A DNA stretch of 48,984 nucleotides. It comes from Candidatus Rifleibacteriota bacterium (GTDB taxonomy: Bacteria; Muiribacteriota; Ozemobacteria; Ozemobacterales; Ozemobacteraceae). Location: the NCBI GenBank assembly GCA_012517355.1, contig JAAYVD010000137.1, positions 1 through 48,984 on the forward strand, read 5' to 3'. This document shows, piece by piece, positions 24,588 through 48,984 of the stretch. The notes beneath the pieces are model-generated. The model saw only the letters and a program-made list of their open reading frames with translations, searched no databases and was not told the origin of the DNA. Every line of letters begins with the position of its first letter. The stretch's first letter is position 1. The position numbers and the translations under genes were made by a program.

Positions 24588-24880
24588 CGGACGCCGGCGA
24601 TAATGTGCTGGACTTCAGGAACGAAGGAGACAGGAGAAAGGGAGAAACAGGGGAAGGGGAGAGCGGGGTTTGAAGGAAAGCCGGCGATAATGTGCTGGAC
24701 TTCAGGAACGAAGGAGACAGGAGAAAGGGAGAAATGGGGGAAGGGGAGAGCGGGGTTTGAAGGAAAGCCGGCGATAACGCGCTGGACTTCTGGAACGAAG
24801 GAGACAGGAGAAAGGGAGAAACAGGGGAAGGGGAGAGCGGTGATTGAAGGGAGCCGGCGATACTGTGCTGGACTTCAAGA
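24588..24880. repeat. 87-bp purine-rich tandem repeat, 3 to 4 copies
   Basis: GCCGGCGATAATGTGCTGGA followed by CTTCAGGAACGAAGG recurs with starts of the TAATGTGCTGG core at 24601, 24688, 24775 and 24861 (87, 87, 86 bp). The units are nearly identical. The array fills the gap between the divergent GspF and histidine phosphatase genes. It shares the GGGGAAGGGGAGAGCGG block with the arrays at 18.5 kb and, more weakly, at 1-400. Confidence 0.95.
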
Positions 24881-24921
24881 GCGAGAGAGGCGCGCGGGTT
24901 TCCCTCCGGGGGCGGCTGGGG

Positions 24922-27864: not shown

Positions 27865-29103
27865 TCAGCGGTCGAAGGCGCCCTGCTCGATCAGGCCGAC
27901 GAGCCGCAGCACGAGTTCGTTGAACCGGTCGGTCTCGACCGCCTTGGCGGGGTCGTTGACGGTCGCCGACAGGCAGAAGGTGGCCGAGGCCGGGGCCTTG
28001 CGCAGAAGCATGGTGTAGTTCAAGACTCCGGGTTCCGAGCCGCCCTTGAAGCAGACCTTGAACCAGGCGTCCTTCTGGACGAGGCCGGGGTTGATGCCCA
28101 GCGCGGGGGAGTGCTGCAGGTCGAAGATGACCCGGCAGAGGTCGCGGGTGGGGATGAACCATTCCACTGAATCGACGAGGAAGGGCGAGGTGCGGACGGC
28201 GGCGATGCGCACCGGCTCGGTGGCGATGCCGTCGAGGATCTGGCGGCGGCCGGCGGGGTCGGCCTTGGCGAAGGTCTCGGCGCGGGCGGGGTCGCCGTAC
28301 TTGATGCGGAACATCTCCATGGTGGTCAGGAAGGGGAGCGAGCCCGCCGGGGCCAGGGCCTCGACCGCCTCGCGGCCGAGGAAGTCCATCAGCAGGTCGG
28401 TCGCGGTGTTGTCGCTGATCGAGATCATCAGGTTGGCCAGCGTCGACAGGGTCAGCGGGGTGCCGTCGGGCCACTCCTGCAGGATGCCCGAGGGCAGAGA
28501 CTTTTTCGCGCCGTCGAGCGGGATCGTCTGGCCGGGGCGGGCCTTCCCGGCGGCGATCCGCTCTTCGAGGGCCTTGAGCACGTAGAGTTTGAAGGCCGAC
28601 CCGACGCCAAGGGGTTCGGCGGGGGCCAGCTCGAACACCGGCTCGCCGCCGTCGCGGGTCAGGGCCACCGACACCTTGCCCGGGAGCTTCTTGAACTCGG
28701 CCAGCAGCGTGTCGGGCTGGTCGTCGAAGAAGGTCCACTGGCCGAGCCAGAGACCGTCGACCTTGCCGGCGGCGTCGAGGTGCAGCTTGCAGGGCGCCTT
28801 CCCCTTGGCGAACAGCAGGTCGTAGGAACCGGCGGCCCCGGTGGTCTCGCGGAACCTCCCCAGCTTGTCGAGGTACATCTGCCGGATCTCGTCGATCTTG
28901 GCCGGCGGCACGGCCTTCAGGAAGGCCTCCTGGAAAGCCCCGGCGTGGTCCTTGATGCCGTCCTGGAAGAACGTGCGCAGGAAGGCCACCTCGGGGCCGT
29001 CCGACCCCGGCGCCGCCATCACCGCCACCGGCGTCCAGGCCAGCCCCAGAGCGCCAGCCAGCACCAGCAGGACACCCACCAGGCATGGCTTCATCTGTTT
29101 CAT
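27865..29103 (-). CDS. Secreted class A beta-lactamase-like serine hydrolase
   Basis: A 412-aa exported protein. The signal peptide is CLVGVLLVLAGALGLAWT, cleaved near AVMA. An N-terminal domain of about 110 aa (helical, then beta, NTF2/DUF3887-like in appearance) precedes a penicillin-recognising fold with S169-x-x-K172 (SAFK), S230-D231-N232 and K353-G354-G355. All three active-site elements are present. It may be a beta-lactamase or a peptidoglycan-directed hydrolase; the latter fits the extra domain. ATG at 29103 chosen for GAGGGGACGG upstream; an ATG at 29094 is possible, and the frame stays open through the MKS/MKR repeat further upstream. Confidence 0.85.
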   Translation of the reverse strand: MKQMKPCLVGVLLVLAGALGLAWTPVAVMAAPGSDGPEVAFLRTFFQDGIKDHAGAFQEAFLKAVPPAKIDEIRQMYLDKLGRFRETTGAAGSYDLLFAKGKAPCKLHLDAAGKVDGLWLGQWTFFDDQPDTLLAEFKKLPGKVSVALTRDGGEPVFELAPAEPLGVGSAFKLYVLKALEERIAAGKARPGQTIPLDGAKKSLPSGILQEWPDGTPLTLSTLANLMISISDNTATDLLMDFLGREAVEALAPAGSLPFLTTMEMFRIKYGDPARAETFAKADPAGRRQILDGIATEPVRIAAVRTSPFLVDSVEWFIPTRDLCRVIFDLQHSPALGINPGLVQKDAWFKVCFKGGSEPGVLNYTMLLRKAPASATFCLSATVNDPAKAVETDRFNELVLRLVGLIEQGAFDR

Positions 29104-29195
29104 CCGTCCCCTCGATTTCATCCGTTTCATCGATTTCATCCGTTTCATCGATTTCACCCGTTTCATCGATTTCATCCGTCCCGTCGACTCGATCC
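29100..29195. repeat. 9/18-bp tandem repeat upstream of the beta-lactamase-like gene
   Basis: ATTTCATCCGTTTCATCG-type 18-mers (on the minus strand alternating ATGAAATCG and ATGAAACGG) are repeated for about 95 bp. The repeat is in frame with the gene, would encode alternating Met-Lys-Ser and Met-Lys-Arg, and offers an ATG every 9 bp. Confidence 0.85.
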
Positions 29196-29399
29196 GATTC
29201 ATTCGCCCCCCCCTTTCACCTGCGCTGCCCTTCCGGGTCGCCTGGGGGCATCCTTCGCCCCAGGAAGGCATAGACGCGCGTTTTTCCTGCGTTGCCATTC
29301 CAGGTCTGCCGGGCACAACCCCGGCGGGACCACGGTTCCGACAGTCCCCATGCGGGCCCGCTGCCCCACCGTATCCCATCCCGCCACCCATGTCAAAAC

Positions 29400-43610: not shown

Positions 43611-43639
43611 TTGCATCGCCCTACGGCGGGTCGTACAAT
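43611..43639 (+). promoter_or_regulatory. Sigma70-like promoter of the sigma/anti-sigma/protease operon
   Basis: TTGCAT (43611-43616), 17-bp spacer, TACAAT (43634-43639), 35 bp before the first start codon. It matches the window's other promoters, so basal expression by the housekeeping sigma factor is likely. Confidence 0.65.
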
Positions 43640-43674
43640 GGGCCGGTCAGCCCAGCCCCAGGAGAGGAACAGGC

Positions 43675-44364
43675 ATGGCCCGGCCCAAACACCACACCAG
43701 CAAGGGTTTTCCCCCACCCGAAGCGGACTTCGATCCGGAACGCGGGTCTCCCCCGGCCGCTGGCCGTCGCCCGGAACGTGGACGGAAAGCCAGACCTGGC
43801 TCCGGACCGGTTCGGCCGCCCCCCTCCCCCGGAAAGCGTGGCCACGCGGATTCCCCGCGCCGCCGCCCGAGGGTGGGCGAAACCGGCTACCTTCTCGACA
43901 CGGCCCTCGCCATGGCCCTCACCCAGCTTGGGCAGCCTGGGGACCTGGCCTCCTTCACCTTCGTCCCCGCCCCCCTGCTCCGGTTCGGGCAGGTGGCCTT
44001 CATCAAGAACCGCTTCTGGAGCGCCCTGCCCGAGTTCCAGGAAGAGACCTGGGATTCCTCCGACGCCCACCCCGGCCTGTGCGTGTCGGACGGCCCCGTC
44101 GAGGTGGCGTTCGGCACCTCCCGCCTGGGGCGGCCCCGGCCGGCCGCGGCCGAGCCCTTCCGGGTCGACCCGCCCGATTGTGACGTCCTGAAGAAGAGCG
44201 CGGTGTTCCTGCTGAAGGAACGGCGCCCCATCGTCCCGGGCGTCCTGCACCTGCGCGAAGAGGGCCCGGGCATCCTGAAGGAACGCCGCCTGAAAGACCT
44301 GGCGCGGCGCCTGCAGCGGTGCCACCAGATGGCCCTGCCGGGGCGGGGGAGCGACCATGGCTGA
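43675..44364 (+). CDS. Possible MazF/PemK-fold protein with disordered basic N terminus
   Basis: A 229-aa protein. Residues 1-68 are Pro/Arg/Gly-rich and probably disordered. The rest contains RFGQVAFIKNRFWSALPEFQ (103-122), a HPGLCVSDGPVEVAFGTSR segment, and DVLKKSAVFLLKERRPIVPG followed by a C-terminal helix. That order (GxV strand, then RPxxVxS-like strand, TS turn, LxKxSxV strand) resembles MazF/PemK proteins. The match is by eye and modest. ATG at 43675 with GGAGAGG. First gene of the operon; its stop overlaps the next start by 8 nt. If it is MazF-like, it could be a toxin-derived regulator and not an RNase. Confidence 0.55.
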   Translation: MARPKHHTSKGFPPPEADFDPERGSPPAAGRRPERGRKARPGSGPVRPPPSPGKRGHADSPRRRPRVGETGYLLDTALAMALTQLGQPGDLASFTFVPAPLLRFGQVAFIKNRFWSALPEFQEETWDSSDAHPGLCVSDGPVEVAFGTSRLGRPRPAAAEPFRVDPPDCDVLKKSAVFLLKERRPIVPGVLHLREEGPGILKERRLKDLARRLQRCHQMALPGRGSDHG

Positions 44365-45508
44365 CACCCGGTCCATGTGGGACAGCTTCCGCATCTGGGC
44401 GAAAACCCGCTCCGACCGCCACCTCGCCGTGTTCCAGGCCTGGCTCCAAGGCCTGGTCGCCCGGCAGGTCCACTCCTTCTGCCGCCGGCTCGACCGGCCC
44501 TTCGACGATGAATTCGCCCGGGACATCCTGCAAACCACCTGGCACTGGCTGAGCCAGGAGGAAGGCGCCGACCAGATCCTCGGCCTGCTCGCCGAAGGGG
44601 CGGCCGACGGCCAGGTGGCGGCCTACCTCGGCAAGACCATCCGTTCCCTGTGCTGGAGTGCCTTCAACCAGGAACACGGCCGCGACTTCCGCCGCCTGAT
44701 GGACGCGGTCGGCCGCCGCCTGCGGGCCCTGGCCGCCGACGGCACCCTGCAGGTCTTCGAACGGGCGGGCCAGAGCCGCACCCAGCAATGCTTCCACCTG
44801 CCCGCCCCCCGCCCCCCGACCACCCCGGCCCGCGAGGCGGAGATCACCTCCCGCGTCTTCGCGGGCATCAGCGTCACCGCCGAAGCCAACCCCACGGCGA
44901 AGACCGGGCGCACCACCTTCAGGAACCTCGACCTGGCCGTCCGCGCCCTGATCGAGCGGCACCCGCACCGCGACCGCTACTGGACGACCGTGCTGGCCAC
45001 CACCGCCATCAACCGCCGGTTCCGCCTGACCTTCCAGACGGTGTACCTCGACGAGCAAGTGAAGGGCCGCGGGGAAACGGCGTGCTGCCGCGGCGACCTG
45101 ATCGCCGCCCCCCCCGGCCGCGAAGCCCTCGACGACGCCTGCCTGGTCGACTGGGTGGCCGAGAGCCTCGCCGAGTTCCGGTTCCGGCGCGACTGGCAGC
45201 GCCAGGCCCAGGTGGCCGTCCTCTACTACCTGGCCAAATATGATGCCCAGGCCCTCGCCCTCCTCGCCATCCCGCCCGCCTGGAACGGTCTGTTGCTGGA
45301 CGACGAGCCGGCTACCGACCAGATCATGAAAATTCTTGAATGCAGCCGGGGAAGCGTCTCCATCTGGAGGACGGCCTGCGAATCCTTCCTGCTGGCCCGG
45401 CTCGACCTGCTCCCCGCCGCCCTGCGCGGCCGCGGCTTCGTCGGGTTCATGAAGGCCCTGGTCGTCGATCTTCCCCTCCCGCGAGGGGAAAGGAGTCCTC
45501 GCGCATGA
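44357..45508 (+). CDS. ECF-like RNA polymerase sigma factor with large central insertion
   Basis: A 383-aa protein. The N-terminal part (about 24-115) resembles sigma region 2: DDEFARDILQTTWHWLSQ parallels the DAEDLxQexFxxxW helix, and VAAYLGKTIRSLCWSAF parallels the WLxxIAxNxxxD helix. A C-terminal helix-turn-helix (about 315-345: DQIMKILECSRGSVSIWRTA) fits region 4. Between them lie about 200 residues of unknown structure, so it is twice the usual ECF length. Its stop overlaps the next ATG (ATGA). The downstream zinc-finger protein supports the sigma call. Not a standard family member, and promoter recognition is unproven. Confidence 0.6.
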   Translation: MADTRSMWDSFRIWAKTRSDRHLAVFQAWLQGLVARQVHSFCRRLDRPFDDEFARDILQTTWHWLSQEEGADQILGLLAEGAADGQVAAYLGKTIRSLCWSAFNQEHGRDFRRLMDAVGRRLRALAADGTLQVFERAGQSRTQQCFHLPAPRPPTTPAREAEITSRVFAGISVTAEANPTAKTGRTTFRNLDLAVRALIERHPHRDRYWTTVLATTAINRRFRLTFQTVYLDEQVKGRGETACCRGDLIAAPPGREALDDACLVDWVAESLAEFRFRRDWQRQAQVAVLYYLAKYDAQALALLAIPPAWNGLLLDDEPATDQIMKILECSRGSVSIWRTACESFLLARLDLLPAALRGRGFVGFMKALVVDLPLPRGERSPRA

Positions 45509-46545
45509 AAAGCAAAGCGAACGGCTGCCCCTCTCTCGAACGGCTGGTGGAGTATGCCAACCGCCCCCGCTCCGCGGCCAGGGATCCCGCCCTGGAAAAA
45601 CACCTGAAGACCTGCCCCACCTGCCGGTTCACCGTGACCCCAGCGCCCCTTCCCCGCCCCGCCGACCTGGAGGGGAAACTGGACGCCCTCAACGATGCCA
45701 TGCAACGGCAACCGCCTGACAGCCTCGCGTTCGGCCAGCTCTGGCGCATCGCCTTCCCCGGCGGCAACCGCGCCGGTGTGATCACCTTCGACACCCGGGA
45801 GTCCGCCGACCCCGACCAGCCGGACGTGCGCGTCGTGCCCGTCTGCTTCACCGCCGAACCCGCCGAGATCGATGCCGGCACCGACCTGCTCCTCGCCCCG
45901 CGCGACTCCACGCTCGGCCTGCGCGGCCTGCTGGAAACCTGGAACGAGCGACCCGTCCTGGCCCGCCAGCTGACCGTGTTTCTGGGCACCATGACCGCCG
46001 CCGCCGCCCGCCGCCTCCACCAGGCCCTGGCCCCCGACCGCGCCCGGGCCACGGTCTCTCCCACCATCGAGTGGTTCCGCCAGGCCCGGATCGCCGAAGG
46101 GGAACGGATGTCCGCCCCCTACTTCGCGGCCCGCCGCGGCCTGCCCGTTCCCCTGCCCGACGACCTCGACCTGTTCCCGGCCCGGAAGGCGACACCCAGG
46201 ACCTCCCGGACGGCCCGCCCCGCCCCCGCCGCGGCCAACGCCCGGGAAGCCCTGGCCGCCGATGCCGACTCCGGGGCGCTGGCCGACCTGCAGTTCCGGT
46301 TCCTGAAGGCCCAGGCCGCCCCCGGCGCCCCCCGCTTCGTCGTCCGCCCGACCACGCATCCCCTGGGCCTGCGGGTCGCCTTCGGCCCGAAACACGGGGA
46401 GCTGGCCGTCGCCCTCCTGCAGCGGGGCCGGATCGTCGCCCGCTTCCTGACCACCGGCGGCGAACTGGCCTTCCAGCTGACCCCTGAGGGCTGCCTGGTT
46501 CCCGCTTTCGACGAGGTCGTGACCGTCCCCTATGGGGAAGACTGA
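45505..46545 (+). CDS. Zinc-finger anti-sigma-like protein, soluble
   Basis: A 346-aa protein. The N terminus CPSLERLVEYAN ... EKHLKTCPTC places H33, C37 and C40 (with C8 a possible fourth ligand) exactly as in zinc-binding anti-sigma (ZAS) domains. Unlike typical ECF anti-sigmas it has no TM helix. The C-terminal part (about 250-346) is beta-rich (PLGLRVAFGPKHGELAVALL). The middle is unrecognised. Encoded directly after the sigma-like protein and overlapping it by 4 nt, and overlapping the protease gene by 14 nt. I infer it holds the sigma factor until released, possibly by the protease. Confidence 0.65.
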   Translation: MKSKANGCPSLERLVEYANRPRSAARDPALEKHLKTCPTCRFTVTPAPLPRPADLEGKLDALNDAMQRQPPDSLAFGQLWRIAFPGGNRAGVITFDTRESADPDQPDVRVVPVCFTAEPAEIDAGTDLLLAPRDSTLGLRGLLETWNERPVLARQLTVFLGTMTAAAARRLHQALAPDRARATVSPTIEWFRQARIAEGERMSAPYFAARRGLPVPLPDDLDLFPARKATPRTSRTARPAPAAANAREALAADADSGALADLQFRFLKAQAAPGAPRFVVRPTTHPLGLRVAFGPKHGELAVALLQRGRIVARFLTTGGELAFQLTPEGCLVPAFDEVVTVPYGED

Positions 46546-48984
46546 CCCCGCCGCCCCGCCCACCCCCCGCCAGCTCAAGGCTCTTCGGAACCAGCTCCGA
46601 AAGGCGTTCGCCGGGCCCCAGGCCCCGGGTGACCCCTGGCTGGACGGCTCATTCGCGGCCGCCCTCGAACGGCTCGTCCCCCCACGCCGCGACGACCCCC
46701 TGCGGCGGTTCCTCGACGACCTCTGGGCCCAGCGGCCCAGCCGGCTGCCCTGGCTCCTCCGGCCGACCGCCGGCCGCGACCGCGCCCGTGACCTCGACTG
46801 GCAGCAGGCCATGCAGACCGAACTGGAACGGTTCACCCGGCGCCCCGACCTGCTCCTGCTCGCTTCGGAAGCCCTGGCCGGCCTGGAGGAACAGGCCCGG
46901 CGCCTCGGGGAAGGAGACGCCGTCTTCCACCTGCGGGCCAACCGCGAGCGCCTGGCGCAAGCCACCCGGGAAGAGCCCGCCCCCGGGCCGGTGACGGGCC
47001 TTCCCCTTCCCTCGCCCGGCGTCCTCCTGGTGCAGCGGAAAGCCCGACGCCTGTGGCTCGCCGGGTTCCAACTCCTCGAGCCGGGCCTCCAGCGGCAGGT
47101 GTTCGGCACCCTGTGGTATCCCTCAGACCGCGAGGCAAAGACCGCCTGGGAGGATGCCCTGACCGCGGCCCACGCGGGAGTCGACCCGGGCATCCGCGTC
47201 GACCCCGTCCTGCCCGTGCTCGACCTGGGGGGCGCCGACATCGAGGGGAACTCGTTCGGCCTCGCCCTCTGGCTGTTCACCTGGCTCCACCTCCAGCGGG
47301 CGCCTCTCCCGGGACGCCTCGCCGCCACCGGCAACGTCCGGCCCGACGGTCAGGTCACCGCCGTCAGCCCAGCCACGTTCGACCTCAAGGTCCGCCTCGC
47401 CCTGCACGCCGGCTACGACCACCTGTTCGTGCCCGCCGACAACGTGGGGCCGGCTTCGCCCTGGCGCGGCGACCCGCGGGTCGTCCCCGTCACCGACGCG
47501 GCCCAGGTCCGGGACTGGCTGGCCGACCACGACCCGGCCGTCCGGGCCCGCCGGCGCGTGACCTGGTTCCTGCGCGACCGGACCGGGGCGGCCCTGCCCC
47601 CGCTCGCCCCCCTGATCCGGCGCCAGGTGACCGGCGACGGCCTGCCCGCCCTGATCCGCGACTGGCTGGCCCTGGCCCGGCGGCACGGGACCGGCCGGGA
47701 AGCGTTCCTCGAGGTGCTCAACCATCTGCGCCGGGAGTTCGCCGGGCTGTTCCGCGAAGGGAACGCCGCACCCGGCACGGGGCCCGACCCCGGCGAACTG
47801 GCCGCGCTGCAGGCCATCCTGCCCGAGCGGGTCTGGCTGGTCTTCCTGCCCTCCCTGCTGTTCGCGCTGGCCCGGGACCGCACCGGACAGTTCTCCGCGG
47901 AATCCCTGTATCAGAAGGCGCGCGAGCGGTTCTTCGACCACGACGCCGACCTGCAGATGGCCGGGCGGGTTCTGGAGCCGCTGTTCGACCGGGCCGCCGC
48001 CGCCCCCGGCCGGGGGGACATCTGGGTCCAGACCTGGTTCCGGCGCCGGTTCCCCGGCCTGGTCTGGCTGTTCTTCCATGAGCCTCTCGAGGCGGTGGCC
48101 CGCCTGCTGAGCCTGCCGGAACGGACCCCCGATGAGGACCGGGCTCTGGCGGGGTTTTTCGACACCCTCGCCGCGACCGATGCCGCCCGCTACGCCGCCC
48201 TGGACGTGACCGAACGGGACCTGCATCACCACCCCATGCGCCAGGCCGTCGCCCGCCACCTGGGGGAGTTTCAACCCGCCATCGCCCCGCCCCCGACCTT
48301 CCGGGAGCGGCTGGCCCTCCTGTGGCGCATCCTGGTGCGGCTGCCCGCCCGCCCTTGCGTGGACGGCCGGGAGCCGGCTCGGCGGGAAACCTGGCCACCG
48401 GCCACGGGGGCCGTCCCCCCCCGGACCGCGGCCGGGTCCAGGTCCGCACCAGGGACCACCCGGCCGGCGGCGGGGAAACCAGCGACCCAGGCGGCGGCAG
48501 AAGGGATACCCCGGACCGCGGGAGGGGCCGCCACCCCGGCCGCGGAGGGCCCGGTCCTCCAGTCGCCGCCGGCAGCCGCACCGCCCGCTGCGGCGAACGG
48601 GAAGAACCCCCGCCTGACCGTCCTCGCCTGGCTGGAGGCTCATCTGCGGGCCCCCCGGCCCTATGGCCGCCCGCCCCTCGCCGACCTCTTCCCGACCCTG
48701 CTCCCCCTTCTGCGGCAGGTCCCGACGACGGCGGCGGCGGCCGAGGCCCTGGCCGGGGAGGTGAAAGCCCTGGCCGACCGGCCCGGCGGAGCGGTGCTCG
48801 ACACCCTGCACCGGGAGATCCGCCACGAGGCCCGGCGGCTGGCCGATGCCTCCCGTCCCCCGGCCAGCGCCGGCGGACTGGCCGCCGCGGGCCGGACCGG
48901 TCCCGCGGCCGCCGGCGCCGGGAAGCCCCCCGGCCAGCCCCCGCAGGGAGACCTGGCCGGGAAGGTCTTTTTGCAGGCCCTGGC
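46532..48984 (+). CDS. Lon-type (S16) protease-domain protein, 3' end beyond the window
   Basis: At least 817 aa with no stop before the window ends. Residues about 195-310 look like a Lon proteolytic domain: EGNSFGLALWLFTWLHLQR (catalytic S241), LAATGNVRPDGQVTAVSPA, and FDLKVRLALHAGYDHLFVPADN (split here only by domain; catalytic K286). The S241-K286 spacing of 45 is close to Lon's Ser-Lys dyad. There is no Walker A/B upstream, so it is not a canonical AAA+ Lon. Residues 1-190 and 330-600 are unrecognised helical regions. A Pro/Ala-rich linker spans about 610-690. ATG at 46532 overlaps the anti-sigma gene. Its sensor domain, if any, may lie off the window. Confidence 0.7.
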   Translation, partial: MGKTDPAAPPTPRQLKALRNQLRKAFAGPQAPGDPWLDGSFAAALERLVPPRRDDPLRRFLDDLWAQRPSRLPWLLRPTAGRDRARDLDWQQAMQTELERFTRRPDLLLLASEALAGLEEQARRLGEGDAVFHLRANRERLAQATREEPAPGPVTGLPLPSPGVLLVQRKARRLWLAGFQLLEPGLQRQVFGTLWYPSDREAKTAWEDALTAAHAGVDPGIRVDPVLPVLDLGGADIEGNSFGLALWLFTWLHLQRAPLPGRLAATGNVRPDGQVTAVSPATFDLKVRLALHAGYDHLFVPADNVGPASPWRGDPRVVPVTDAAQVRDWLADHDPAVRARRRVTWFLRDRTGAALPPLAPLIRRQVTGDGLPALIRDWLALARRHGTGREAFLEVLNHLRREFAGLFREGNAAPGTGPDPGELAALQAILPERVWLVFLPSLLFALARDRTGQFSAESLYQKARERFFDHDADLQMAGRVLEPLFDRAAAAPGRGDIWVQTWFRRRFPGLVWLFFHEPLEAVARLLSLPERTPDEDRALAGFFDTLAATDAARYAALDVTERDLHHHPMRQAVARHLGEFQPAIAPPPTFRERLALLWRILVRLPARPCVDGREPARRETWPPATGAVPPRTAAGSRSAPGTTRPAAGKPATQAAAEGIPRTAGGAATPAAEGPVLQSPPAAAPPAAANGKNPRLTVLAWLEAHLRAPRPYGRPPLADLFPTLLPLLRQVPTTAAAAEALAGEVKALADRPGGAVLDTLHREIRHEARRLADASRPPASAGGLAAAGRTGPAAAGAGKPPGQPPQGDLAGKVFLQAL

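Follow-up and report, generated by a model that had tools for sequence, protein, structure and literature searches.

The 3' end of contig C37 from an uncultured Riflebacteria bacterium carries a four-gene operon that we judge likely to be a type III CRISPR-associated proteolytic signalling relay, one with a build like that of the CalpL-CalpT-CalpS system and a different sensor. The window analysed is the whole of this contig (48,984 bp), part of a 7.1-Mb genome (G000). The genes encode, in order, a small conserved protein, a sigma-like protein, a zinc-finger/MazF-like protein and a Lon-type protease. Successive genes overlap, as a preliminary description of this DNA had reported, with overlaps measuring 8, 4 and 14 nt, and the fourth reading frame (46532->48984) runs off the contig end after 817 codons.

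43675..44364, + strand: gene 1, small conserved protein; motifs FGxVAFIxxxxW, HPGLxxS and AFGTS; homologues in 7 other operon copies
44357..45508, + strand: gene 2, probable divergent sigma factor; aa ~24-65 sigma-2-like, aa ~320-350 sigma-4-like helix-turn-helix
45505..46545, + strand: gene 3, probable anti-sigma factor and likely CalpT counterpart; 346 aa, 37.4 kDa; zf-HC2 plus PemK/MazF-like domain
46532..48984, + strand: gene 4, Lon-type serine protease; 817 aa present up to the contig end, where the gene is truncated

Conservation of the operon

A profile search with gene 4 across 40 genomes of the phylum retrieved full-length or near-full-length relatives from G003 (two copies), G006, G009, G011, G016, G018 and G037, together with shortened copies from G015 and G018. 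The order gene 1-gene 2-gene 3-gene 4 recurs in other Riflebacteria genomes of the family, with the genes closely spaced or mostly overlapping. The neighbourhood search proposed in the preliminary description found the same arrangement at roughly 15-30% protein identity, a recurrence beyond chance. Genes in the relatives were called with a simple open reading frame scorer, such that start positions are approximate. The operon is accessory, since gene 4 is missing from G001 and G002, which belong to the same genus; plasmid and viral collections, which were also searched, yielded no relatives. Two shortened copies, L039:6459-9836 (G018:C62) and L038:6413-10480 (G015:C202), appear to be decaying: their gene 4 has lost much of the helical region and kept the Ser-Lys dyad and the C-terminus, and in L039 genes 2 and 3 are shortened as well.

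A motor-free Lon-type protease

Gene 4 encodes a motor-free Lon-type protease domain, confirmed by both fold and catalytic dyad. The dyad S241/K286, proposed from the window sequence, is invariant in 11/11 sequences and lies inside the Lon-type domain; the absence of an AAA+ motor, proposed at the same time, is likewise upheld, with no match found and helical regions on the flanks.

47024..47527, + strand: Lon proteolytic domain of gene 4; approximate limits, transferred from the orthologue model
47252..47254, + strand: catalytic Ser codon S241; invariant 11/11
47387..47389, + strand: catalytic Lys codon K286; invariant 11/11
47528..48984, + strand: start of the C-terminal all-helical region, from the AlphaFold2 model of orthologue L013; no CARF, SAVED or AAA+ match in Pfam or PADLOC

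Searched against the PDB with hmmsearch, the gene 4 family profile matched Lon proteolytic domains (A. fulgidus Lon, E=8.6e-8). For the 904-aa orthologue from G006, an AlphaFold2 model built on 11 sequences (mean predicted local distance difference test score, pLDDT, 70; predicted template modelling score 0.61) contains a single alpha/beta domain at about residues 93-255, for which Foldseek returned Lon protease domains (prob 1.00, template modelling score to target about 0.6). In the modelled orthologue an N-terminal segment of about 90 residues precedes this domain, and in the window copy one of about 165. Past the Lon domain the model is essentially strand-free, with helices through to the C-terminus, and full-length orthologues (892-1098 aa) have ~650 helical residues there. 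The earlier observation that no SAVED domain is visible therefore extends beyond the window. In Pfam and PADLOC searches none of the 11 members matched AAA+, CARF or SAVED, save for a weak match to the Lon part, and neither these searches nor the orthologue model revealed a hidden SAVED or CARF domain. Across the 40 genomes, the only match to the PADLOC Lon-SAVED model was the Lon part of G006 gene 4; therefore no classical CalpL is seen in the phylum.

A zinc-finger/MazF-like protein resembling CalpT

Cleavage of CalpT/CRISPR-T is reported to yield two fragments, a MazF-like one of 23 kDa that remains with the sigma factor and another of 10 kDa (PMC9704534, PMC11417357, PMC12751052). Because its zinc finger, MazF-like domain, linker and tail fit this reported layout and these fragment sizes (residues 1-215 amount to 23.6 kDa), gene 3 is likely the counterpart of the CalpT anti-sigma factor, as judged by layout and size.

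45505..45636, + strand: gene 3 zinc finger C8...H33xxxC37xxC40; zf-HC2, E=0.0028
45724..46029, + strand: MazF/PemK-like domain (aa 74-175); hhalign prob 83.6%, P=8e-6
46147..46281, + strand: low-complexity linker of variable length in the alignment; candidate cleavage zone
46282..46542, + strand: C-terminal segment (~9 kDa), from alignment and size

The H33-C37-C40 zinc finger of the preliminary description proved to be of the zf-HC2 type, with C8; the window copy falls below the Pfam cut-off, and 4/9 orthologues are matched. The MazF-like domain was recognized with a profile of 18 bona fide PemK proteins of the phylum, to which residues 74-175 align with a score of 42.2. By comparison, 150 column permutations gave at most 20.0, leaving aside a few whose scores, near 133 and confined to 4-18 columns, were spurious, and the reversed alignment gave a probability of about 0.1%. 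The RP motif and Ser/Thr of catalytic MazF are not conserved in the orthologue alignment, so the domain is probably no RNase; the candidate role of gene 3 as an active toxin was rejected on the same residues. A PDB sequence search with gene 3 returned no match.

These results redistribute the parts named previously, when gene 1 was taken for the MazF-like protein and gene 3 for an added zinc-binding anti-sigma (ZAS) factor: both are one protein, gene 3. Against the PemK/MazF profile gene 1 reached only 0.7% in hhalign, with a score weakly above permutations; a MazF fold is not supported for it, and the MazF-like protein of the operon is taken to be gene 3, where the signal lies.

A divergent sigma-like protein

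Gene 2 is probably a sigma factor, as weak profile matches suggest. It is very divergent, 375-440 aa long, and overlaps the zinc-finger gene by 4 nt. When compared with extracytoplasmic function (ECF)-type sigma profiles of G000, its N-terminal part aligns on region 2 (permutation p=0.02) and its C-terminal part on region 4 (p=0.007), in the right order. Pfam offered nothing convincing and a PDB sequence search no match. AlphaFold2 predicts a mostly helical structure for the G009 orthologue (pLDDT 78), and this model has no significant match among PDB structures; its weak matches include three sigma chains. Support for the sigma-2/sigma-4 assignment made earlier is weak. As for the host, G000 has 31 sigma-70 region 2 matches, and this bacterium therefore relies heavily on sigma-based regulation.

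Linkage to type III CRISPR loci

A check for a link between the operon and CRISPR was positive: in several relatives it adjoins complete sets of type III-A or III-B cas genes, or arrays. A single 21.7-kb contig of G006 bears a short array, a CARF-like gene, csm5, csm4, csm3, csm2, cas10, a CARF gene and cas6 in addition to the operon, and one contig of G011 bears an array, a CARF gene, the operon and convergent III-B (cmr) genes. The operon contig of G018 shares an exact 99-nt end overlap with a contig that starts with the gene 4 C-terminus and continues into a CARF-like gene and then csm5-csm2-cas10. A repeat-spacer array lies about 200 bp beyond gene 4 in G037, while in G003 the array on the operon contig has a repeat identical to that of an array on a contig with csm genes (III-A) and cas10. 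G000 itself has a III-A locus on the 8.6-kb contig C65 (csm5-csm2, cas10 with HD and GGDD present, and an apparent cas6); we make no claim that the window contig end joins C65, with which it has no overlap. The preliminary description saw no CRISPR at the locus; the relatives show that CRISPR is nevertheless involved.

Cas10 is present in 7/8 genomes with gene 4 versus 4/32 without (p=1.3e-4), counted above 80 bits, a line set after weaker matches were seen to include GGDEF-type proteins; counting every match over the Pfam cut-off gives p=0.004. The cyclase motif GGDD of Cas10 is intact at four loci (G000, G006, G011 and G018), and because it is kept and CARF genes occur in the loci, cyclic oligoadenylate (cOA) is probably made in these cells. 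In the concatenated operon tree the three III-B genomes cluster (support 84), and the same-genus G009 and G016 are separate. That operon clades follow CRISPR subtype is suggestive only, given seven typed genomes and physical co-transfer as an alternative cause.

Several further genes were noted at these loci. The CARF-like gene between gene 4 and csm5 in G018 (L040:844-1944) has a possible nuclease motif at its end and looks Card1/Can2-like by eye, with no NCBIfam match; a gene beside csm5 in G006 (L093:407-1486) resembles it. Beside a III-A locus in G003 lies a second, divergent type III-like set (L090:5009-16479, G003:C169) with RAMP-like proteins and a ~509-aa Cas10-like protein, accompanied by an array of the same repeat. 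TPR-like genes recur at the edges of type III loci (L013:10694-13666, L018:8180-8605 and L092:3117-7059), with a DUF463 GTPase gene too in L013.

Proposed mechanism and alternatives

In the relay that we favor, the zinc-finger/MazF-like protein would keep the sigma-like protein inactive in the resting cell. Detection of foreign RNA by a Csm or Cmr complex would switch on the Lon-type Ser-Lys protease, which would then cut gene 3, probably in the linker that separates the MazF-like domain from the C-terminal segment, so that gene 2 would be released and a transcriptional response would follow. Because it has no AAA+ motor, gene 4 should cut specifically rather than degrade processively. We infer that gene 2 acts as a sigma factor, that gene 3 is cleaved and where, and how the protease is activated. 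The Calp-analogous circuit suggested in the preliminary description keeps its outline, which the type III linkage and the plan of gene 3 support, while its gene assignment was wrong and proteolytic sigma release stays putative.

The helical region of gene 4 would be the likely input part, most simply through protein contact with the type III complex; TPR-CHAT of type III-E, which docks on its effector complex, provides a model for such a helical input (PMC10028731, PMC9729208). More specifically, but only tentatively, since we consider it rather unlikely in this full form, the helical region may dock on Csm/Cmr, target-RNA binding and not a cyclic nucleotide may trigger cleavage of gene 3, and the operon clades may be specialised for III-A or III-B. 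Docking by gene 4 and a cOA-dependent activation are about as likely as each other.

Several observations weigh against the relay as we propose it. The sigma identity of gene 2 comes with weak profile matches and no significant fold match, and the zinc finger of gene 3 is lacking in G016 and has a broken motif in L011, the copy from G003 (2/10 orthologues). The gene 4 model was built on 11 sequences, at a mean pLDDT of 70. The CRISPR genes of G000 are on the separate contig C65, which has no end overlap with C37, and G009 carries the operon with no Cas10 detected. Finally, CARF-type sensors elsewhere in the loci could provide the link instead of gene 4.

This last point belongs to the alternative that survives best, in which the operon is an ordinary cOA effector: cOA would activate the protease, with gene 1, a divergent fold in gene 4 or a neighbouring CARF protein as its sensor. 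We rate it as a serious contender that nonetheless falls short of an even chance. It gains from the intact GGDD at the four Cas10 loci, from the CARF genes there, and from gene 1, which is small, conserved and without explanation; it is opposed by the lack of CARF or SAVED in gene 4 by hidden Markov model, by the absence of strands after the Lon domain in the model, by the position of the CARF genes outside the four-gene unit and by the failure of gene 1 to match any CARF family.

The operon could instead be a stand-alone stress or defence circuit, its helical region sensing a phage or stress signal directly and its CRISPR linkage reflecting a shared defence island. Direct sensors commonly contain large helical regions, no Cas10 was detected in G009 although it carries the operon, and some copies are distant from cas genes. 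This reading is unlikely, however, as several loci immediately adjoin type III genes or arrays, Cas10 co-occurs with gene 4, and the operon clades track CRISPR subtype.

Least probable, and to our minds quite improbable, is the release of a MazF-type RNase toxin, gene 3, held by its zinc finger and tail until freed by the protease, with gene 2 an unrelated helical protein; early work proposed toxin release for CRISPR-T (PMC9704534), and the MazF-like domain and the lack of a firm sigma match in gene 2 would agree with it, but gene 3 does not conserve the RP motif and Ser/Thr expected in active MazF enzymes, a zf-HC2 domain typically belongs to an anti-sigma factor, and the sigma-2/sigma-4-like segments of gene 2 stand in order.

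Gene 1, promoter and other features of the window

Gene 1 is a near-constant extra partner in the operon; it was not seen on the short contigs of G016 and G003:C17. Relatives do not share the ~70-aa N-terminal extension present in the window copy. Searches of Pfam, NCBIfam, PADLOC and PHROGs gave no convincing family match, CARF families no match, and the PDB no sequence match. A gene 1 profile scan across genome collections returned 5 loci, all on contigs of this phylum, some of them filed under other metagenome-assembled genome labels; the scan used a narrow peptide pattern that misses known copies, and spread beyond the phylum is thus not excluded by it.

43611..43639, + strand: promoter-like TTGCAT-N17-TACAAT, by reading; under the consensus-scan threshold
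43660-43664, + strand: AGGAG ahead of the gene 1 ATG at 43675

The single promoter claimed in the preliminary description can be seen by reading at this position, yet is below the scan threshold. The orthologue L011 has TTGACA-N17-TAGAAT at the equivalent position. An ECF-type promoter motif common to the regions upstream of gene 1 was looked for, and none was found. Elsewhere, the window contains tandem repeats at 1-368 (100-bp unit), 24593-24884 (87-bp) and 29090-29202 (18/36-bp), which are not CRISPR.

Comparison with known systems

The open literature (subscription papers and preprints being outside the scope of our search) describes Lon-SAVED, CARF-Lon, TPR-CHAT and SAVED-CHAT systems, and we found in it no Lon protease linked to CRISPR that lacks a nucleotide sensor. 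If our proposal is correct, the operon represents a further architecture for CRISPR-controlled proteolytic sigma release, in which the usual second-messenger sensor is absent though Cas10 can probably still make the messenger, and gene 4 is a Lon protease that lacks a motor, is triggered by RNA and acts on a specific substrate.

The closest system is CalpL-CalpT-CalpS (CRISPR-Lon/Lon-SAVED, type III-B, Sulfurihydrogenibium), which shares a Lon-type protease without AAA+, linkage to type III CRISPR, a MazF-like anti-sigma protein with a 23 + ~10 kDa layout, and a neighbouring sigma-like gene. The operon described here differs in having a helical region instead of SAVED, an N-terminal segment ahead of the Lon domain, an HC2 zinc finger on the anti-sigma protein, the extra gene 1, and links to both III-A and III-B. 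SAVED was sought and is absent, and we therefore do not class the operon as a Calp member.

Individual components can also be set against larger families. As in pairs of ECF sigma and ZAS anti-sigma factors, a sigma-like gene overlaps an HC2 zinc-finger gene, whereas here gene 2 is very divergent (375-440 aa), the anti-sigma protein bears a MazF-like domain and the operon has a dedicated protease. With ZAS anti-sigma factors gene 3 shares the Hx3Cx2C zinc-finger domain, broken or absent in 2/10 orthologues. Unlike the Lon protease family (S16), gene 4 has no AAA+ ATPase beside its protease domain. The SAVED-CHAT protease cascade of type III-B is likewise a type III CRISPR-linked form of proteolytic signalling; its CHAT protease is activated by cyclic triadenylate (cA3) via SAVED, and it has no Lon protease.

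Craspase/CASP of type III-E (Csx29 TPR-CHAT, Csx30, Csx31 and CASP-sigma) parallels the operon in combining a protease that has a helical regulatory part with a cleavable sigma inhibitor, a sigma factor and one extra small gene, and Craspase itself works without a second messenger. The operon differs in its Lon Ser-Lys rather than CHAT Cys-His catalysis, its multi-subunit csm/cmr loci rather than Cas7-11, and its zinc-finger/MazF-like inhibitor. It makes directly testable whether proteases can be switched on by standard III-A and III-B complexes through protein contact, the route taken in type III-E.

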